From the NCBI GenBank assembly GCA_029260695.1, contig JAJDCT010000295.1, forward strand, positions 1 through 10,725: a stretch of 10,725 nucleotides of DNA. The letters run 5' to 3'. The position numbers and the translations under genes were made by a program. Positions 1,861-10,633 of this stretch are shown here, piece after piece (position 1 is the stretch's first letter; each line of letters starts with the position of its first letter). The DNA comes from Phycisphaeraceae bacterium (GTDB taxonomy: Bacteria > Planctomycetota > Phycisphaerae > Phycisphaerales > Phycisphaeraceae). The notes under the pieces are model-generated. The model worked only from the letters and a program-made list of their open reading frames with translations, did no database searches and was not told where the DNA came from.

Positions 1861-4764
1861 TTACTTCGAATACTTGTGCTCCAGCCGCTCTAGCTCCTGC
1901 CGCGTGACGGGGCCGCCCAGGTTAGGATCGGTCATGCGGAGTTGTCGGACGCGCAGGGGGATCTCCTCGGTGCCCTCGTCAAGCCGTTCGTTGATCTGCA
2001 GGCGGCGCATCCAGGCGATCCACCACTCTTTTGGGAACGGCTGGCCCAACCCTGTGATCAGCCTGTCGTAGTAGCGCACCGCCTCGATCAGCGAATCCTC
2101 GTCGCCGCGCTCGTAGAGGTTCTGGGCGTACTCGAGCATGACCTGCGCATCGTTGGGGAAGTCGTTGATGAGCCTGCCGAGAATCACGATGGCGGGCTGG
2201 ACCTGCCCGGACAGGCGCAGTGTCTTTGCACGGATCACTTCGAATGGCATTAGCTGGTTGGCGTCGAGGGGCTGTGTGTTCGCCCAGTCAAGCAGGAACT
2301 TCGACAACACCGCCGCGGCCTGTGCCTGGGCGTGTGCTTCCTTCTTGAGTGAATCCGCGGTCATGCTATCAGCGGTGGCAGCCCGGACGAGCAATCGTTC
2401 GATACGCAGATCGGCCTGGCTGAGTACGCTATCGATCACAGAGGCGGCCTGGTCGGGGTAGCCTTCTAACATCTGTCGCGCCTCGACCGCCAACGCCTTA
2501 TGTCGTCCCGCATCGGCCAGGGCGATGATCCGGTGTTCGAGCGCCTGGGATACAAGGTCGTCTTCACCCGGGTATGCGTGCTCGAACCCGTCTAACGCCT
2601 CGATCACGGCGTCGTATTCCCGATCACCCAACGCCAACTCTGCACCGACTAATCTGGCGGTGGCCGCGGCACGGCGGGCGAACTGAGCGCGGTCGGGATT
2701 GACCCGGCTATCCAGTATCTGATCCGCCTCGGAAATAATCCGTTTCATCGCGGCACTCAATTCACGACGCATACGGGGCCTGTTTGATGCCTCAGCCAAC
2801 CTGTGTTGCTCGCCCAGGCTGATCAACGTCTGACGCTGTGCCTGGAAGTACTCGTCGTGATCGAAGGGGACACGCTGATACATCTTGATCGCATCGCGGT
2901 GCCTGCCCGAGGACTGCAAGACCGAGTAGCCGAAGTACAACCGCTCACCGTCCGCCGCGGCGCTGGTCGGGAACTTGCTGAACAGCACGCCGGCGGCCCG
3001 TTCGTAGGCCTCTTCAACCTCGGCAGGTGTCGGCAGGACCTGGTGCAACTCACGCAGCAGCACAACCGACGCGGCGATCGCGTCCTCGGCCACGGGCTCG
3101 GTGGGCATCTGGTCCGCCAGGTCGGTCAGGATCGCGGTGAGTTCCAGGCGGTTGCCGGGGTCTTTGGGGGCGACCGCGTGCATCGCCATCGCCTGATTGA
3201 ACATCGCTTCGGATCGGATCGCCGGATCGATCTGGGGCCCGGTTAGCGCCCCGGCGAGCTCAATCGCCCGGGTAAGCTTTTCGTTGGCCTGCATACGACG
3301 CGGATCATCGTCTCCATCCACGCTAGGCCCCGGAACATCGGGGTCATTCAATTGCTCGAGCATCTCCTGGCCCTGCTGCCGAAGCACCTGGCTCACCGCC
3401 AGACGGACCACCGGCGGCAATGCGTCGGCTTGCTCGGATTCTTTAAGTGTGGATTCCCATCGCTGATAGATGAATTGGCGCAGGCCCTTGACCTGCTCAC
3501 CGGGGATAGGGCCGGCCAGGAGTTCCAGATAAGGTTGGTAACTCTGCGCCAAGGCGGCGTCGCGCTTGCTGGGGGGCAACAGTTTGGCGTGGGCGAACAT
3601 CACCCGGTGCGTCATGTCGGCGACCAGCAGGCCGTAGCGCAGATTCTCGATCACGGCGGGATCGGTACGGAGTTGGGTCAGTTCGTCGATCGCCGACTCG
3701 GGCTTGCCCATCTGCTGTAGCGCCGCGGCCCGCGCCAGGCGAGCGGTCAGCCAGGCGGTTCCCCGATCATCCCCGCCGACCAGCTCAGCTAATAATTTCT
3801 GGGCTTGCTCCGACCGCCCACGAGCCAAAAGAATCCGGCCCCTCAGTGACACCGATGCGTCACGGACCCCGGAAAAATCGCCCAGGTCGCCGGTGAATTT
3901 AGTCAGTTCCCGGTCGGCCAATTCAAGGAGCCTGGCCCGCTCCCTATCGGGCGAAGTCACCTGGTTTGGGATGCGTGGCCCGGCCTGCGTGCCCAGGCTT
4001 GTGAAGTAAAGCGAATCATCCGGCAAGCGTGCCACAAGGTACGCGGCCTGTGCCAGGAAGTACGGCGTGCGTCCGCGGTCATACTCATCAAACAGGCGGA
4101 AAAACACGCCGCTGCTTTGGAGTTGCTCAGAACGAGCGGGATCTCTCCCGACTTCGCCCCGAAGATTGAATAGCCGGAGTTTGGCGTCCGCCAACAACAC
4201 CAACGCCTCGGGGCCCGCGTCGGCCAAGGCCTCTTGTTGTGCGGGGGTCGTGACGCCGAACTCTGCAAACAGCACGGCTGACTGATGCAGGCCCTGCAGG
4301 TAATCTAACAACAGGTCCTGCGCCAGATCGGTCTGCCAGATCGAGCGCTGGTCGTGGTCGTAATAGTCCGCGATCAAGCCGCGCGACGCGTCGGTCATCC
4401 GCTTAAAGGCTTCGATCGTCTGCGTGCGTAATACCTGGGACCGCTCTGGGTGCTGCGAGGAGGCCTCCCGGGCCTGCTCCGCGAGCTTCTGGTATTCCAA
4501 TCGCAGCCCCGCCAACTCGATCTGCCGGGCAAGTACCGGGTCTTGAGGCCTCTCGGTCTCAACCAAATGCAGCAGCAGTTCGCTCATCCCTTCTCTGCCC
4601 AAGGCTTCGATGAGTGTCGCGGGGTCCAGTTCCTCTACCTGCGCGGCCAACTGATAGGGTGTAGCCGTCAAGATGACCACGAAGAGCGCAGAGAAGATTA
4701 GCCGCGAATGAACGCAGATGAACTCAAATCGGATTGGCCCGGAAACCCTTCTATCTGCGTTCAT
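1861..4764 (-). CDS. Large secreted helical-repeat (TPR-like) protein of unknown function
   Basis: I do not recognise a named family for this 967-residue protein. Residues 21-42 (RLIFSALFVV then a small-residue stretch ending LAAQ) form a signal peptide, preceded by an unusually long and odd n-region. The rest is nearly all amphipathic helix, rich in A, L, E, Q and R, with TPR-like pairs clearest at 843-902 and around the middle of the C-terminal half; an acidic DGDDDPRR linker breaks it roughly in the middle. No transmembrane segment follows the signal, so it is predicted to be periplasmic or envelope-exposed. It ends an operon with exbB and two exbD genes, 81 bases after the second exbD, and may be a scaffold for that complex, loosely like CpoB in Tol-Pal systems but about four times longer. 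The ATG lies inside a dispersed repeat; no other ATG, GTG or TTG upstream of the hydrophobic core gives a sensible signal peptide. Confidence 0.85.
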   Translation of the reverse strand: MNADRRVSGPIRFEFICVHSRLIFSALFVVILTATPYQLAAQVEELDPATLIEALGREGMSELLLHLVETERPQDPVLARQIELAGLRLEYQKLAEQAREASSQHPERSQVLRTQTIEAFKRMTDASRGLIADYYDHDQRSIWQTDLAQDLLLDYLQGLHQSAVLFAEFGVTTPAQQEALADAGPEALVLLADAKLRLFNLRGEVGRDPARSEQLQSSGVFFRLFDEYDRGRTPYFLAQAAYLVARLPDDSLYFTSLGTQAGPRIPNQVTSPDRERARLLELADRELTKFTGDLGDFSGVRDASVSLRGRILLARGRSEQAQKLLAELVGGDDRGTAWLTARLARAAALQQMGKPESAIDELTQLRTDPAVIENLRYGLLVADMTHRVMFAHAKLLPPSKRDAALAQSYQPYLELLAGPIPGEQVKGLRQFIYQRWESTLKESEQADALPPVVRLAVSQVLRQQGQEMLEQLNDPDVPGPSVDGDDDPRRMQANEKLTRAIELAGALTGPQIDPAIRSEAMFNQAMAMHAVAPKDPGNRLELTAILTDLADQMPTEPVAEDAIAASVVLLRELHQVLPTPAEVEEAYERAAGVLFSKFPTSAAADGERLYFGYSVLQSSGRHRDAIKMYQRVPFDHDEYFQAQRQTLISLGEQHRLAEASNRPRMRRELSAAMKRIISEADQILDSRVNPDRAQFARRAAATARLVGAELALGDREYDAVIEALDGFEHAYPGEDDLVSQALEHRIIALADAGRHKALAVEARQMLEGYPDQAASVIDSVLSQADLRIERLLVRAATADSMTADSLKKEAHAQAQAAAVLSKFLLDWANTQPLDANQLMPFEVIRAKTLRLSGQVQPAIVILGRLINDFPNDAQVMLEYAQNLYERGDEDSLIEAVRYYDRLITGLGQPFPKEWWIAWMRRLQINERLDEGTEEIPLRVRQLRMTDPNLGGPVTRQELERLEHKYSK

Positions 4765-4822
4765 CAGCGCTCATCCCTGTTGATGTCTTCTTCACGCTCA
4801 TCGCGACTTCGTGGCGATTCAT
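4703..4822. repeat. Composite dispersed repeat with a 12-bp perfect inverted repeat
   Basis: ATGAACGCAGAT at 4708-4719 and ATCTGCGTTCAT at 4753-4764 are exact reverse complements, 33 bases apart. On the minus strand the sequence from 4822 reads as two known styles of spreading sequence in a row: a CGCCACGAAGTCGCG / GCGTGAAGAAG part (4822-4788) and an AACAGGGATGAGCGCTGATGAACGCAGAT part (4781-4753). From memory, both styles occur as short dispersed repeats in Planctomycetes and other environmental genomes; I cannot check that here. The element fills the spacer after the second exbD gene and runs into the 967-residue gene, providing its start codon and the first 19 or so codons. Confidence 0.6.
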
Positions 4823-4845
4823 CCGTCCCAGACACGGTTGCGGGT

Positions 4846-5427
4846 TCACTGTGATACCTGTGCGAAGTTGATGTTGGTGTACCGGGCGCGGACGGCGGCG
4901 TTGAAGGCGTTAGCCACATGCTGCCAACGGACGCCGGCCTCGGGTTTAATGACCACGGGGCTGTCGGGTTTGAAAGCACCACTGTGCAGGCCTCGCTCGG
5001 GGTCGTACTGAAGTTGAGTCAACAACACCGCCAAATCCGCGAAACCGGTGGGTGCCTGGGGATACCCCTGGATACTGATCCGGACCTGGGTTTCCCCCGC
5101 GGGAGACAGGACGATATTCAAGGGCCGCTGTGGCGGGGTCATGTCCTGGCTGGGGCTTCCGGTCCCTTGGGGGAGTTTGGCGGTGAGCACGCCCTCGTCG
5201 GGGGTGAAATTCGCAGTAACCACGAAGTAGATCAGCAGCAGGAAGATGACATCGATCATGGCCGAGAGGTTCGGCTGCATGCTCGGCTTAGGCCGGCCGT
5301 GGCGCTTGCTCGCGGAGCGGTGGTGGACGGTCTGGTCGGCCTGCATGCCATCAGCCTGCCGGGGGTCCGCCAACCGGGGGTCGGCAGGGGTCGTCGCGTC
5401 GAGTTGATCTTGGCCTGTATTCGTCAC
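4846..5427 (-). CDS. exbD: ExbD/TolR-family protein, divergent second copy
   Basis: A 193-residue inner-membrane protein of the ExbD/TolR family, the partner of ExbB/TolQ in proton-driven envelope complexes. Layout: a hydrophilic cytosolic N-terminus (1-53), one transmembrane helix (about 57-75) with the proton-carrying aspartate D59, and a periplasmic domain to residue 193. The core NLSAMIDVIFLLLIYFVV matches the family, but the usual T-P-L before the aspartate is S-A-M. The N-terminal arm is about 35 residues longer than in the first copy and contains a short ADPR duplication (15-18 and 20-23). The start is a GTG at 5425-5427, 7 bases after the upstream exbD stop, with no Shine-Dalgarno; an in-frame ATG at 5344-5346 (residue 28) is the alternative. 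Tight spacing implies translation coupled to the first exbD, and the pair may form a mixed ExbD dimer inside the ExbB ring. Confidence 0.92.
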   Translation of the reverse strand: MTNTGQDQLDATTPADPRLADPRQADGMQADQTVHHRSASKRHGRPKPSMQPNLSAMIDVIFLLLIYFVVTANFTPDEGVLTAKLPQGTGSPSQDMTPPQRPLNIVLSPAGETQVRISIQGYPQAPTGFADLAVLLTQLQYDPERGLHSGAFKPDSPVVIKPEAGVRWQHVANAFNAAVRARYTNINFAQVSQ

Positions 5428-5434
5428 GGTGGGA

Positions 5435-5944
5435 TTACTCGCCGATCTTCACGGTCGCTGCGCCGCGTTCGGGCATGTAGGCGACCAGGTTGACTTTGTC
5501 GATCCCCGCGCGGGTGATCGCGCCCATCACGGGCTGGACCACGCCGTAGTAGAGCGCCCCGTCGCTGCGCAGGACCACCTCCGCGTCGGGGTAGGCCGAC
5601 TTGGCATCGATCAGCGCGGCGGTGACCCCCTCCAGGTCGTCGGCGGCAAACGTCTGCAACCCCACGCGGATAAACCGTGCCTCGCCGTCAAATAGAAGCG
5701 GGTTGTCTGCGCGCTCGCGGTGAGCGTAGTCGGCCGGGGCGATGTTGACGATGATCCGTCCGGCGTCGTCCAGTTCCCGGGTCGTCGGCTCGTCAAGCTG
5801 TGGAACAATCATCTGAACGCTCTGCTCGGAGATGATGTTATTCACGAGCATGAAAAAGATAATCAGGAGGAAGACCACGTCGATCAACGGCGTGATATTC
5901 ATCTGAGGCTTGGTCGGGCCGCGATGGAAGATCTGGGAAGACAT
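5435..5944 (-). CDS. exbD: ExbD/TolR-family biopolymer transport protein, canonical copy
   Basis: A 169-residue inner-membrane protein with the textbook ExbD signature MNITPLIDVVFLLIIFFM at residues 15-32; D22 in the transmembrane helix (20-38) is the residue expected to carry protons. A short basic cytosolic N-terminus (1-18) precedes it, and a periplasmic domain follows, with the conserved closing segment starting at PDAEVVLRSD (119-128) and running through YYGVVQPVM and GIDKVNLV. ExbD works as a dimer inside a pentameric ExbB ring and couples proton flow to movement of a TonB- or TolA-like partner. The ATG at 5942-5944 is followed closely by this signature, so the start is secure. It lies 48 bases after exbB across a G-rich tandem repeat and 7 bases before a second, divergent exbD. 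Confidence 0.95.
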   Translation of the reverse strand: MSSQIFHRGPTKPQMNITPLIDVVFLLIIFFMLVNNIISEQSVQMIVPQLDEPTTRELDDAGRIIVNIAPADYAHRERADNPLLFDGEARFIRVGLQTFAADDLEGVTAALIDAKSAYPDAEVVLRSDGALYYGVVQPVMGAITRAGIDKVNLVAYMPERGAATVKIGE

Positions 5945-5953
5945 GGTGATGGA

Positions 5954-5991
5954 GGGTCTTGGGTCTTGGGTCTTGGGTTTGGGGCCTGGGG
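5954..5991 (+). repeat. GGGTCTT tandem array with canonical G-quadruplex pattern
   Basis: Three exact head-to-tail copies of GGGTCTT occupy 5954-5974, followed by GGGTTT, GGGG and CCTGGGG to 5991. The first four G-runs (5954, 5961, 5968, 5975) are separated by identical four-base TCTT loops, which satisfies the strict G3-N4 quadruplex pattern; two more G4 runs at 5981 and 5988 allow alternatives. The G-rich strand is the plus strand, the template for the exbB-exbD transcript, so the RNA is C-rich. The array fills almost the entire 48-base gap between exbB and the first exbD. Confidence 0.8.
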
Positions 5992-5992
5992 T

Positions 5993-6844
5993 CTAAGGCT
6001 TAGAGTTAGTCGTTGGGGGTTGCGGGGGATCGTTTTTGGGTGGGGTTTGTTTAGGCGATGACTTGGGTTGGGTCTTGGGGGTTGTTGGTTTGGCCTGTGG
6101 GCTTGGGCCTGCTGGCTTGAAGGGTGCGATGACTTGCTCGGCGATCAGCATGCCCTCGCTGGTCAACGCGTCGATCTTGTTGCGTATCAGGGCGTAGGAC
6201 GCCAGCGCGGGGATCGCGACCACCAGGCCCCAGAAGGTGGTAATCATCGCGGTGGAGATCCCCCCTGCCAGTGCCGCGGGGTCGGGCCTGCCGCCGCTTG
6301 CCTGGAGTTTGTCGAACGCGACGATCATGCCGTAGACGGTGCCGAACAGCCCGATCATGGGTGCGATATTTCCAAGGACGTTGAGATACTCGATAGGCCG
6401 AAGCGCCCGGGTGGTCTCGCTGTCGCCTGCCTCCTCGATCGCTCGCTCCATCGCGCCGTAGCCGTGCCCCCCCTCGTTAAGCGCCGCGCTGATGATCCGG
6501 CCCAGGTAGCTTGGATCTTTGGCCGCAAACTCGATCGCCTCAACAAACCGCTTACCCATCAGCAGGTCCGACACCTTCTTTCGGGACGTCTCGGGCAGCA
6601 GCTTCGACCGGCGGTAGCGGAGCATCAGGCTCAGCGTGTACCCCGTACTTATTGCCGACAGAAACACCAACAGCCAGGTAATCAACATACCCAGGAAGTC
6701 GCCCGGCAGCAGGAACATCTTCGCGACACTGGTCGTCTCGTCCCCGCCCTGCGCCCACGCCGGGGCTACGGGCAGCACCGCCAGAGCAACAGCGGCCAGT
6801 AAAACGGAAGGTCTCATCATCACAACGCGGTTGGGTTCGTTCAT
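5993..6844 (-). CDS. exbB: ExbB/TolQ/MotA-family proton channel subunit
   Basis: A 283-residue inner-membrane protein. Residues 10-31 (MRPSVLLAAVALAVLPVAPA then WAQ) form a cleavable-looking signal peptide, a feature of ExbB subtypes with an extended N-terminus. Three transmembrane helices follow at about 50-75, 153-177 and 195-220; the second and third carry the family signatures NVLGNIAPMIGLFGTVYGMI (156-174 region) and ISTAMITTFWGLVVAIP (196-212), which line the proton path. A cytosolic helical region lies between the first and second helices. ExbB forms the pentameric ring around the ExbD dimer. From residue 243 the protein ends in a 41-residue tail with 14 prolines and 7 lysines and no hydrophobic residue, absent from typical family members. 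The ATG at 6842-6844 abuts the TAA of the upstream gene, pointing to coupled translation; ATGs at residues 9 and 10 are alternatives. Pairing with ExbD and not a MotB-like protein argues against a flagellar motor role. Confidence 0.94.
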   Translation of the reverse strand: MNEPNRVVMMRPSVLLAAVALAVLPVAPAWAQGGDETTSVAKMFLLPGDFLGMLITWLLVFLSAISTGYTLSLMLRYRRSKLLPETSRKKVSDLLMGKRFVEAIEFAAKDPSYLGRIISAALNEGGHGYGAMERAIEEAGDSETTRALRPIEYLNVLGNIAPMIGLFGTVYGMIVAFDKLQASGGRPDPAALAGGISTAMITTFWGLVVAIPALASYALIRNKIDALTSEGMLIAEQVIAPFKPAGPSPQAKPTTPKTQPKSSPKQTPPKNDPPQPPTTNSKP

Positions 6845-7930
6845 TTATTCACCTGACGGGGCATCTTTGACGGAGGCGATCCGTTCATTGAGCCTCTGGT
6901 AGTACACGGGGTCTTCCTGTTGGTCTATCAACGGCCGGGCTCGATCGTAGAGCCGGCTTGCGATGTCGTTGCGATTGATGAGTTCATGGACGTAACCGGC
7001 TTCGAGTGTGGCTGGACCGGCTACGGCGCTTCGTGGGAAATACACCACGACACGCATGAAACTCAGCCCGGCCGACTTGTAGCCGTCCCGGTCGCCGGTG
7101 CTCTCCGCCAGCGCCAATTGCACCATCCCTTTGAGGTACAGCTTCGACGCCGTCTTCCCCGGCTGGGTCAGCGACTCTTCGGCAGCCAGCAGGGCCTGGT
7201 CATAGCTGCCCCTGCGATACAGATTGGCGACCGACCCAGGCGGCACGCTGGCCGACAGCGCCGGGACAGCGGCAGCCCTACCCGTCAAGCCCGATTCAGG
7301 ATTAGCTCCAATACCGGTTGAGTCAAGGTCGGCGGGCGTGCCGGCCGCAGTTGTGAGCTTCTGCAGCAACGCCGCTTGCTCAGGACCCACCGTACCGATC
7401 GCCGCCTTTGTAAGCTCCAAGACACGTATCCTGACTGCGGCGTCGGCCTGCGCAACAACGTCCACCGGCGGCTGAGCCACAAAATAGAGATCGGCACCGG
7501 ATACGACCATATCTATATAGAGCCCCGCTGCGGAATCCGCTTTATCAAGCCGGGCGAGCGCTTGCACACGTTTCATACCGACGTACCACCGGACCCAGGG
7601 CTCCTCGGCCTGTTGCGCCACCTGCCACCACAGGGCAACCGCTTGTGTGTCATCCCCTCGACTGACCGCCGTCTCCGCTTCACCTAGCGCGGGGTACCGC
7701 CCTAGTTTGAGCCCTTCAAGGCTCTTCGCCGATCTGACCAATTCGTTACCCGAACGTGTCTGGTAGTGGACCTGGCCTTGTTGAATCGTATGGACCGTCA
7801 CCGGCTGCACCCACAAACCCGAGAGCTTCACCGCGTCCTGACCGAACGCCGACGAGATCGCAACTAGCAGCACCGCCAAGATACACACACCGCCCAACCG
7901 CGTCTTAAGTGTGCTGTTGCCTCTTGCCAT
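6845..7930 (-). CDS. Secreted TPR-like protein of unknown function
   Basis: A 361-residue protein with an N-terminal signal peptide (basic n-region, hydrophobic core about 14-27, likely cleavage after AFG near residue 30) and no further membrane segment, so periplasmic or envelope-associated. After a short segment containing LSGLWVQPVTV (36-46) there are helical-repeat regions at about 88-140 and 232-340 with TPR spacing of small and aromatic residues, joined by a G/A/P-rich linker at about 195-235. No named family is recognised. The ATG at 7928-7930 gives a normal signal peptide and has GGAA six bases upstream; an in-frame ATG at 7961-7963 would add 11 residues. The stop codon directly touches the exbB ATG, tying it to that complex. 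Its position is like that of CpoB/YbgF in Tol-Pal operons, but I see no coiled-coil trimer region, so the comparison is positional only. Confidence 0.82.
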   Translation of the reverse strand: MARGNSTLKTRLGGVCILAVLLVAISSAFGQDAVKLSGLWVQPVTVHTIQQGQVHYQTRSGNELVRSAKSLEGLKLGRYPALGEAETAVSRGDDTQAVALWWQVAQQAEEPWVRWYVGMKRVQALARLDKADSAAGLYIDMVVSGADLYFVAQPPVDVVAQADAAVRIRVLELTKAAIGTVGPEQAALLQKLTTAAGTPADLDSTGIGANPESGLTGRAAAVPALSASVPPGSVANLYRRGSYDQALLAAEESLTQPGKTASKLYLKGMVQLALAESTGDRDGYKSAGLSFMRVVVYFPRSAVAGPATLEAGYVHELINRNDIASRLYDRARPLIDQQEDPVYYQRLNERIASVKDAPSGE

Positions 7931-7986
7931 GACAGGTTCCGTGCGTGATACCGCGGGTGTCATCCGCTGTGAGGTCGGGCGTGCTG

Positions 7987-9018
7987 CTAGTCGATATTCA
8001 GGTCGGCTTCTGAAACGTATTTATACACGCCACCGCTCTGTTGGGCGATCAGCTTCATCGTTCCGGTCAGCCCGGCTTTGACCAGCGGGTCTTCGTGAAG
8101 GAATTGAAGCGTGTTGATCTTCGTCCCCGACCGATTCACACGCTCGATTTCGGCGAGCAGTTTACGCTGGTCGATCTCGTACTGCCCCTGCCCGGTGATC
8201 GCATCCGAGAGCAGGAAGACCAGTTGAGGCCGGTACTCAAACGCCTTGCGGAGCGCCCTGACGGGGTTACTCGTACCCTTGGGCGTAACAAGGTAGTTGT
8301 CCTCGGCAAGCTGCTCGATAACCTGCTGCTTGATTGCAGGGGTCGCGCGTTTGGCGTCGATCCCGTGCGGTTCGACTTCGATCACGTCGGCGCCCTGATA
8401 AAAGATCACGGTGAACTGCTGGCGCCCGCCGAGCTGGCTGACCGACCGCTTCAATTCACGGATGACAAAAGGGAAGGTATCGATCAAGGAGCCCGAGGCG
8501 TCGATGACAAAGGCGATCCGCCTGGCGTTGCCGCCGGAGCCCAGGAATTGTGCCCGCAGCTCGCCCCCACCGGAGATCGTCGCCTCGAACGGGTTGGCGT
8601 CGCCGGACGAGCCCAGCACGCCGACCAGTGTCGCGTCGCTGCGGGGCTGGGTGAGCATCTGGACCGGCGTCCTATTACGCATCGGTGAGACCGTTCGCCG
8701 CGCAACCGGGTCGGCCTTGAGCCGGGGCACCTGCTTGATCTGTAGCGGCGCGCCGGGGGTCGCGCTGAGCCGGGCGGTGGGGATAATGATCTGCTCGTCC
8801 TGGCTTGCGATCACGGTGGACCAGACCACGAACAACGCAAGCAGAACCAGACCGACGTGCAGAAGGATCGACACGGTCCAGGGGAGCAACCGGGTCAGGG
8901 CATCCTCCGTGGGGCCATCCTCTGCGGGTAACGGTCCGCCCCCGACAGGCGAATCGGGCGTCGGTGTCGTGTCCTCAATCTCAGGTGTCGGCATCGGACA
9001 GGGTCTCCATGTGGCCAT
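7987..9018 (-). CDS. VWA-domain protein with TonB/TolA-like membrane anchor
   Basis: A 343-residue, single-pass inner-membrane protein, N-terminus inside. Residues 1-44 are an acidic, proline-rich cytosolic arm; the transmembrane helix (about 46-69) reads PWTVSILLHVGLVLLALF and holds S50-x3-H54, the S-x3-H motif that TonB and TolA use to engage ExbB/ExbD or TolQ/TolR. A linker to about residue 165 leads into a von Willebrand factor A domain (166-343) with a complete MIDAS metal site: D173-x-S175-x-S177, T249 in PKGTSNP, and D272 in FLLSDA. VWA domains bind protein ligands through a divalent metal. The protein is first in the operon with exbB and two exbD genes and is the only candidate for their energised partner. 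Two starts are possible: ATG at 9018, or ATG at 8994, which has GGAG ten bases upstream; numbering here is from 9018. BatA-type or chelatase VWA proteins lack this anchor. Confidence 0.88.
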   Translation of the reverse strand: MATWRPCPMPTPEIEDTTPTPDSPVGGGPLPAEDGPTEDALTRLLPWTVSILLHVGLVLLALFVVWSTVIASQDEQIIIPTARLSATPGAPLQIKQVPRLKADPVARRTVSPMRNRTPVQMLTQPRSDATLVGVLGSSGDANPFEATISGGGELRAQFLGSGGNARRIAFVIDASGSLIDTFPFVIRELKRSVSQLGGRQQFTVIFYQGADVIEVEPHGIDAKRATPAIKQQVIEQLAEDNYLVTPKGTSNPVRALRKAFEYRPQLVFLLSDAITGQGQYEIDQRKLLAEIERVNRSGTKINTLQFLHEDPLVKAGLTGTMKLIAQQSGGVYKYVSEADLNID

Positions 9019-9072
9019 CGGTCAGGCGTAGACCCAGACCCTACCCCGCTATTCAACCCCGCCCCGGCCCGG

Positions 9073-9101
9073 TTGTCCAGTACGGGCCCGCCGACTATTC
9101 T
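9073..9101 (+). promoter_or_regulatory. Candidate sigma-70-type promoter for the MBOAT gene
   Basis: TTGTCC at 9073-9078 and TATTCT at 9096-9101 each match the consensus at four of six positions and are separated by exactly 17 bases. The start of transcription would fall near 9108, leaving about 41 bases before the ATG at 9149. It sits in the 130-base divergent spacer shared with the VWA operon; no equally good pair was found for the minus-strand direction. Confidence 0.4.
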
Positions 9102-9148
9102 GGCCGCTGCCGATCCGTCCCACTTCGCGGACCACTTTGACCGCGCCC

Positions 9149-10633
9149 ATGGTATTCAGCTCCTACACCTTTATCCTCGCTTTCCTTCCTGTGGTCTTAA
9201 TCGGATTCGCGCTGCTTGGGCGTATCGGCCCGCAGCGGTCAAGGTTTGTCTGGCTGGTGCTCTGCTCACTGGTCTACTGTGGCTGGTGGCGGCTGCCGGA
9301 CCTGCTGCCGTTGGTGCTGTCGATCGCGATGAATTACCGGCTGGGCCGATGGCTCGAAACCGGCAACCCACGACGCAAGAGATGGCTGCTGATCTTGGGC
9401 GTGTCTGCCAACCTGGCGTTGCTGGGTTACTTCAAATACGCCGGGTTCCTGATGACCAGCGCCAACGCCCTGCTGGGCACCACCTGGGACGCGCCGCCGA
9501 TCATCCTGCCGATCGCCATCTCGTTCTACACGTTCCAACAGATCGCCTACATCAGTGACGCCTACCTGGGCCGAACACGCGAACACCGCTTCATCGACTA
9601 CTGCCTGTTCGTCTCATTTTTCCCGCAACTGATCGCCGGCCCGATCGTCCACCACGGGCAGATGCTGCCGCAGTTCTACCGCCGACGCCTGCGGTTTGAC
9701 TCCGCCGACCTGAGCGTGGGCATCAGCCTGTTCGTCTTCGGGCTCGCCAAGAAGGTGCTGATTGCGGACGAGTTGTCGCCGCTGGTGGGGATGGTTTTCG
9801 ATGCGGACCCGGGCTCGCCGTTGACGTTTGGGCTGGCCTGGGTCGGCCTGACCGCGTACGCGCTGCAGATCTACTTCGACTTCAGCGGCTACTCAGACAT
9901 GGCGCTGGGGCTTGGGCGGCTGTTTGGGATACGTCTGCCGCTGAACTTCAACTCCCCGTACCGCGCGACCAGCGTGATCGACTTCTGGAAGCGCTGGCAC
10001 ATCACGCTGTCCGAGTTTTTACGTGAGTACCTTTACATCCCATTAGGGGGCAACCGCAATGGCAAGTCACGCCGGTATGTGAACCTGATGCTGACGATGC
10101 TGCTCGGCGGGCTCTGGCACGGCGCGAGTTGGTCGTTTGTGTTGTGGGGCGGTTTGCACGGGGTGTACCTGATGGTGAACCACGCCTGGCGTTCTCTGGT
10201 CGGGACAGGCAAGCCGGAACAGGCTTATGCAGGCGGCTTGGTTGGCATCTGGGTGTCTCGTGTACTCACGTTTGCAGTGGTCCTGATCGCCTGGGTGCCG
10301 TTCCGTGCGGACGGGCTGCCGCAGATTCAACGCTTCTACTCCGCGATGTTCGGCCTGTCCGGTTTTGACACCGGCCTGGGTGAACTAGGCAGCGACAAGG
10401 CGATCATCATCCTGGCATGCCTGCTGCTTGTCTGGCTGATGCCCAACGTCCCCACCATGATGCGGCGTTACCGCCCGACGACCGGCAAAAGTCTGACGTG
10501 GGACGGGTGGAAACCGTTAGGCGGATGGGTCTGGCGGCCCGAGCCGTTCTGGGCGATCGTGACGGGGCTGCTCACGGTCGGCTGCCTGATGCAGATGTCT
10601 CGGGCCGGGGAGTTTATCTACTACCGTTTCTAG
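9149..10633 (+). CDS. MBOAT-family membrane O-acyltransferase, AlgI type
   Basis: A 494-residue polytopic inner-membrane protein of the MBOAT family, AlgI branch, which passes acyl (often acetyl) groups across the membrane for attachment to exported polysaccharides. It opens with MVFSSYTFILAFLPVVLIGF, the usual AlgI-like first segment, and contains the family core: LIAGPIVHHGQMLPQF, then YFDFSGYSDMALGLGRLFG, LPLNFNSPYRA, FWKRWHITLSEFLREYLYIP (residues about 279-298, H284), and LGGLWHGASW with the catalytic-type histidine at H324, close to His-322 of Pseudomonas AlgI. Length fits the family (about 460-520). The ATG at 9149-9151 is chosen because the family starts at this motif; a TTG at 9137 would add four residues. 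The next gene starts 11 bases after the stop; such MBOAT genes are often followed by a secreted SGNH-type or AlgJ/AlgX-like partner. The polysaccharide substrate is unknown. Confidence 0.95.
   Translation: MVFSSYTFILAFLPVVLIGFALLGRIGPQRSRFVWLVLCSLVYCGWWRLPDLLPLVLSIAMNYRLGRWLETGNPRRKRWLLILGVSANLALLGYFKYAGFLMTSANALLGTTWDAPPIILPIAISFYTFQQIAYISDAYLGRTREHRFIDYCLFVSFFPQLIAGPIVHHGQMLPQFYRRRLRFDSADLSVGISLFVFGLAKKVLIADELSPLVGMVFDADPGSPLTFGLAWVGLTAYALQIYFDFSGYSDMALGLGRLFGIRLPLNFNSPYRATSVIDFWKRWHITLSEFLREYLYIPLGGNRNGKSRRYVNLMLTMLLGGLWHGASWSFVLWGGLHGVYLMVNHAWRSLVGTGKPEQAYAGGLVGIWVSRVLTFAVVLIAWVPFRADGLPQIQRFYSAMFGLSGFDTGLGELGSDKAIIILACLLLVWLMPNVPTMMRRYRPTTGKSLTWDGWKPLGGWVWRPEPFWAIVTGLLTVGCLMQMSRAGEFIYYRF

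Follow-up and report, generated by a model that had tools for sequence, protein, structure and literature searches.

Genomic context of the VWA gene

The window, by which we mean the whole stretch of DNA analyzed here (10,725 nucleotides from a member of the Phycisphaeraceae), comes from a draft genome (G000) of 2.84 Mb in 492 contigs that is 77% complete. Six genes lie on its minus strand in the order VWA, TPR, ExbB, ExbD, ExbD, TPR. As the gaps between them measure only 0 to 81 bases, the row is likely one operon. Its members are listed below in gene order.

7987..9018 (-): putative VWA force transducer (ORF, Pfam, AlphaFold2 model, homologue alignment, and Foldseek)
6845..7963 (-): small TPR-like protein, 372 aa (AlphaFold2 model, Foldseek TPR matches)
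5993..6844 (-): ExbB/TolQ-family proton channel (PF01618, 102.9 bits)
5435..5944 (-): first ExbD/TolR-family subunit (PF02472; transmembrane [TM] aspartate in PLIDVVFLL)
4846..5427 (-): second, different ExbD/TolR-family subunit (PF02472; TM aspartate in AMIDVIFLL)
1861..4764 (-): large TPR protein, 967 aa (Pfam; signal peptide seen by eye, lipobox pattern not matched)

The initial annotation had placed exbB and two exbD genes in the same row as the VWA gene, and the profile matches agree with it, the two ExbDs scoring 69.9 and 62.2 bits. The 372-aa protein has a signal peptide (by eye), a five-stranded beta domain (residues 43-87), and then TPR-like helices; its AlphaFold2 model has a mean pLDDT of 88.7, and no Pfam family matches it at an E value of 0.01. 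Both it and the 967-aa protein are probably periplasmic. A pattern search found a lipobox in 3 of 52 large and 1 of 40 small TPR proteins, one weak match in L048 having been set aside beforehand, and with so few lipoboxes the TPR proteins look soluble and periplasmic. Divergent from the VWA gene, a gene for an MBOAT acyltransferase (Pfam) occupies positions 9137-10633 of the plus strand.

Architecture of the VWA protein

The VWA gene encodes 343 amino acids from an ATG at position 9018 (window ORF list); the protein-database entry begins at residue 9 (P0001, 335 aa). An AlphaFold2 model built on an 82-row alignment (mean pLDDT, 77) divides the protein into an N-terminal tail, a helix (45-71), a linker (72-155), and a VWA domain (156-341). 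The helix is the single long hydrophobic one ahead of the linker, with S50 and H54 inside it, and we read it from the sequence as a putative membrane helix. The 84 residues of the linker are of low confidence and without structure, as in a disordered segment, and the alpha/beta domain that follows is mostly confident.

This domain matches VWA_3 (E value, 1.9e-4) with a score that falls short of the Pfam cut-offs, and VWA models are the sole matches of the protein. In Foldseek, the predicted domain at 156-341 matched VWA domains, including those of inter-alpha-inhibitor heavy chain 1 and CMG2 and integrin I domains. A VWA-family profile found nothing at an E value of 0.01 among the sequences of solved structures, where the fold search did match. 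Given the predicted fold and the Foldseek matches, the VWA assignment is clear despite the weak Pfam score, and it upholds the suggestion that a VWA domain takes the place of a TonB or TolA C-terminal domain. As modeled, the protein thus follows the three-part plan of TonB and TolA with a different head.

The full motif shared by TonB and TolA, SHLS, is given in the available text of PMC12215075 as S-x3-H-x6-L-x3-S, with a histidine that neither Ton nor Tol can do without and a leucine and serine that are less well conserved for Ton. The second half of this motif is missing from the VWA protein, which has A61 and V65 instead of the leucine and serine.

Conservation of the docking motif and the putative metal site

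The first half of the motif is kept almost without exception. Among 120 homologues listed, 3 are truncated and lack the site; in the other 117, H54 is conserved in all and S50 in 114, the remaining 3 having alanine. H54 is also kept in 32/32 order-wide sequences, which include that of the window and are otherwise 25-80% identical to it. In 73 VWA copies from order-wide loci, histidine occurs in 72 of the 72 that cover the site, and the serine position holds serine in 64, alanine in 7, and a gap in 2. Inspection by eye of 18 remoter Planctomycetota loci (L214-L231) revealed S-x3-H in a hydrophobic N-terminal helix in 16; one of the other two has threonine for serine and one does not cover the site. 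The conservation of H54 and S50 rules out a chance motif, and the proposed TonB/TolA-type anchor stands with respect to the first half of SHLS.

The metal ion-dependent adhesion site (MIDAS) had been described as complete, with D173, S175, S177, T249, and D272. Four of these residues are well conserved in the 120 listed homologues (D173 in 120, S175 and S177 in 114 each, and D272 in 119), so that this part of the description holds; T249 does not fit as well. Position 249 is variable (threonine in 18 and serine in 25 of the 120), whereas position 250 is serine or threonine in 94 of 120, which suits the usual Ser/Thr of a MIDAS. Judged from the alignment, the second-loop residue is therefore probably S250 (S/T) rather than T249. 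With this change, the elements of a MIDAS-bearing VWA domain (DxSxS, a second-loop Thr/Ser, and a third-loop Asp) are all present at the sequence level. Order-wide, D272 is kept in 53 of the 73 VWA copies, with a gap at this position in 2 others, and the MIDAS is incomplete in distant families. The description of the head as an adhesion domain is not supported, given this loss of D272 and a domain without known ligand.

Residues of the motor

In the ExbB proteins of these operons, the pore threonines T169 and T203 and the proline P212, together with S63 of TM1, are invariant in 21/21 aligned sequences. T169 and T203 align with Thr145 and Thr178 of solved TolQ, which are named as essential in the available text of PMC12905483. 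In E. coli, an S-x3-W in TM1 of ExbB touches the Ser/His of TonB, according to the accessible part of PMC12215075. We did not see S-x3-W at that TM1 spacing, by eye, in the operon ExbBs, nor likewise in the TonB-linked ExbBs of the order (L104, L107, L114, and L117). Placement of the Ser/Trp contact residues through alignment of ExbB TM1 to solved TolQ was tried and abandoned, as the alignment was weak and too poor for this purpose.

The TM aspartate of ExbD was found by pattern in 92 of 111 proteins and by eye in 18 of the other 19. The sole ExbD that lacks it is encoded at L074 3762-4181 (G031), in a second VWA motor row and beside a normal ExbD, with which it could possibly form a one-proton heterodimer. 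In the genome of the window, what we take by eye to be a MotA-like gene lies near an FlhB-like gene (L036, G000:C138, 5881-6660), and this genome probably encodes a flagellum with its own stator.

Distribution and neighborhood in the order

The named relatives of the VWA gene belong mostly to Phycisphaeraceae and Phycisphaerales MAGs, from which we infer that the order covered by the genome comparison is Phycisphaerales. A VWA match was found in 146/151 genomes of the order (any match, E value of 1e-3), a count in which weak matches in family f2, and second matches, may be other VWA proteins. Two well-completed genomes missed by this search (G098 and G125) match profile A1 over the helix region and may carry just a diverged second system. 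Still without an A1 match are G130 and G139, both <80% complete, and G148 (71%) has a partial match. Across the phylum, A1 matches 126/148 genomes and leaves 22 without a match; as many of these matches cover the VWA domain alone, they do not measure distribution. We conclude that the VWA system is near-universal in the order.

This spread bears on the idea that the VWA domain is moved and thereby pulls on a substrate or a surface adhesin, as with CglB in Myxococcus gliding. Such a role suits the VWA/MIDAS fold and is listed as a possibility in the available text of PMC12204202. A near-universal operon would more readily suggest a housekeeping role, and we consider gliding or adhesion quite improbable.

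The neighborhood was compared in 59 loci from as many genomes. Besides the window, these are 58 relatives chosen by hand so as to combine close and widely spread cases. Within 9 kb downstream of the VWA gene, exbB is found on the same strand in 54 of these loci. At least two exbD genes follow in 53, a large TPR gene in 52, and a small TPR gene in 39, with no small TPR gene recognized downstream in the other 20. The full set of VWA, ExbB, two ExbDs, and large TPR protein is present in 51/59. The eight incomplete loci comprise two that run into a contig end (L041 and L049), one without a recognized large TPR gene (L090), and five without exbB (L053, L084, L087, L089, and L095).

All five loci without exbB retain S-x3-H, and in four of the five genomes a matching exbB-exbD-exbD set is present elsewhere. 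The motor that corresponds to L053 lies with TPR genes on another contig (L139). At L084, L087, and L089, the VWA and small TPR genes stand together and exbB-exbD-exbD is elsewhere (L138, L137, and L136, respectively). At L095 (G012), the VWA gene is beside a large TPR gene, and a separate set of VWA, TPR, exbB, exbD, and exbD occurs at L141. For family f5, the VWA locus of three genomes was retrieved; in each, VWA gene and motor are split and S-x3-H is kept. The expectation that S-x3-H is always next to exbB/exbD is thus borne out for exbB in 54/59 loci and fails as a strict rule in 5/59, where the motif is kept in the absence of these neighbors.

The frequent company of a large TPR gene (52/59) can also be read in another way, with S-x3-H serving just to dock a VWA assembly factor while the ExbD periplasmic domains work with the TPR proteins. 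VWA domains often serve as assembly platforms, which favors such a scaffold. The long flexible linker of the AlphaFold2 model, as in TonB and TolA, points away from it, as does the need of Ton and Tol for the same histidine (PMC12215075, in its available text), and we regard a pure scaffold as unlikely.

A second VWA gene stands in tandem on the same strand in 13/59 loci (L051, L052, L053, L056, L057, L059, L060, L061, L064, L068, L069, L070, and L071), and these tandem genes precede the motor. A few of the copies deviate, with alanine for Ser50 (e.g., L051, L052, and L056) or a changed MIDAS (L071 9220-10548). The two proteins of a pair may form a heterodimer or split roles between them. Separate from these pairs, second, diverged VWA-plus-motor rows were observed at L134 (G070:C13) 7890-10628, L135 (G031) 4302-10380, L141 (G012) 4997-8906, and L145 (G019) 5327-8844. 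The VWA proteins of L134 and L135 also have S-x3-H in the N-terminal helix (by eye).

Ton and Tol components in the order

TonB_C matches occur in 36/101 genomes of the order (33 over the cut-off) and receptor plug matches in 32/101, with 28 genomes shared between the two lists (hand count). Neither domain is matched in the genome of the window (77% complete) or in a 95%-complete congener (G070). A hidden TonB serving this channel was thus considered and set aside: the initial annotation had named a real TonB/TolA gene just outside the operon as grounds for rejecting its proposal, and no TonB domain is matched in either genome. Five TonB loci were inspected; in four, all of family f5 (L096-L099), exbD and exbB lie beside tonB, and at the fifth (L100), which is at a contig start, neither was seen. 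Because VWA matches extend to 146/151 genomes, against 36/101 for TonB_C and 32/101 for plugs, and because four of the five TonB loci inspected have exbB and exbD beside them, we conclude that the VWA system is independent of Ton and more widespread. The same distributions largely refute a role of the VWA protein as a TonB substitute that opens TonB-dependent receptors. The docking motif and motor are indeed shared with TonB, but plugs track TonB_C (28/32) while the VWA protein is nearly everywhere, including two genomes without a plug match, so that such a role is extremely improbable.

The Tol system presents a different picture. A TolB_N search (E value, 0.001) matched none of 101 genomes of the order, although in a set of 14 controls it was positive in E. 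coli, Caulobacter, and Bacteroides. Pal (TIGR02802) exceeded its curated cut-off in 0/101 genomes, compared to 2/14 controls. In 101/101 genomes the Pal model also has weaker matches, mostly two in each, that may be MotB or diverged Pal. These results, with the spread of the VWA gene (146/151) and its two TPR partners, raise the prospect that the VWA motor does the work of Tol-Pal, i.e., constricts the outer membrane when the cell divides and keeps the envelope stable, while TPR proteins stand in for TolB, Pal, and CpoB; CpoB is itself a TPR protein (PMC12204202, available text). The weaker Pal-model matches count against this, and a TolB recognizable by structure alone would escape the TolB_N search. 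We therefore see a Tol-Pal role as tentative and unlikely. Broader still is the proposal that VWA-ExbB-ExbD-ExbD-TPR is the sole proton-driven envelope transducer common to essentially all Phycisphaerales and replaces TolA-TolB-Pal by a metal-dependent VWA grip, possibly force-strengthened like integrin I domains. As a whole, it strikes us as improbable.

Proposed mechanism

The reading that we favor, at a probability of about 0.75, is that the protein belongs among the published vWA force transducers and is driven by protons via S50/H54, with a VWA domain that grips a ligand and an output in the envelope. By analogy with TonB and TolA, S50/H54 would let the membrane helix dock against the outer face of an ExbB5-ExbD2 motor, in which the two different ExbDs probably pair as a heterodimer. 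The motor would then be turned or tilted by the flow of protons, and the flexible linker would carry force across the periplasm. The fold suggests that the VWA domain grips its ligand via the MIDAS metal site. Our best guess at this ligand is the two TPR proteins, which could otherwise serve as adaptors, either to the outer membrane or to peptidoglycan. As for the output, we would guess at envelope upkeep or constriction, possibly Tol-like, rather than nutrient import. Weighing against the favored reading are the S-x3-W not seen in the ExbBs, the absent L-S half of the motif, the 20/59 loci without a recognized small TPR gene, and the MIDAS deviations.

If the favored reading is correct, a third type of output head joins those of the proton-driven envelope motors, and an order with no TolB_N match in 101 genomes may depend on a VWA machine. 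A Tol-like envelope role is now testable. The homologue in Poriferisphaera corsica (KS4_09340; P0077) has S-x3-H in its helix, and since this species is a cultured member of the group, function is open to genetic test.

Comparison with known systems

The VWA system resembles E. coli TonB-ExbBD in the S-x3-H of its membrane helix, the ExbB/ExbD motor, and the flexible periplasmic linker. It differs in having no TonB C-terminal domain (PF03544), two different ExbDs, and the first half of SHLS alone, and in the lack of a plug match in G000 or G070, both of the genus of the window. With TolA-TolQR it has in common the motor, the docking motif, and a TPR protein in the gene row; in contrast to that system, TolB_N is unmatched, and Pal not matched over the cut-off, in the 101 genomes, and for the VWA protein itself Pfam gives VWA models only.

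Two classes of VWA protein are relevant in the available text of Williams-Jones et al. 2025 (PMC12204202). The second of these, TPH-vWA, likewise joins a membrane-anchored VWA domain to a TolQ-like channel, but as described there it has a TM aspartate, no S/H, and no tolR/exbD neighbor. The presence of two ExbDs and the retention of S/H rule out membership in this class.

The other class, the vWA force transducers, is the close match. Its members are reported to have the TonB/TolA motif and adjoining tolQ-like, paired tolR-like, and TPR genes, and AF3 models place their helix at the TonB/TolA site; the same paper calls their function unknown and states that no phenotype of a deletion is on record (PMC12204202). 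The new output that the initial annotation had suggested with respect to known Ton and Tol systems is therefore already in print. As in the Tichowtungia family of that class, the protein studied here has a Ser/His helix with a conserved SHLS histidine, a disordered linker, and a C-terminal vWA domain. The published pattern of a disordered region plus domain II of ~100 residues ahead of the vWA fold corresponds to the 84 residues and the domain at 156-341 in our model. The neighboring tolQ-like, paired tolR-like, and TPR genes are also shared, and Planctomycetes are among the named hosts (PMC12204202). The gene order differs, as the VWA gene is upstream of the motor here and "often" downstream there, and the present system has two TPR genes, one small and one large, along with tandem VWA copies and split loci.

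We found no report of the Phycisphaerales operon or of a Tol-replacement role in a search that covered few subscription journals and no bioRxiv preprints. To the account in PMC12204202, the present analysis adds the near-universality of the system in the order, its independence of Ton, and the absence of a TolB_N match in 101 genomes, as well as the retention of the motif in split operons, an arrangement of genes that includes a second, large TPR gene, and the tandem VWA copies.
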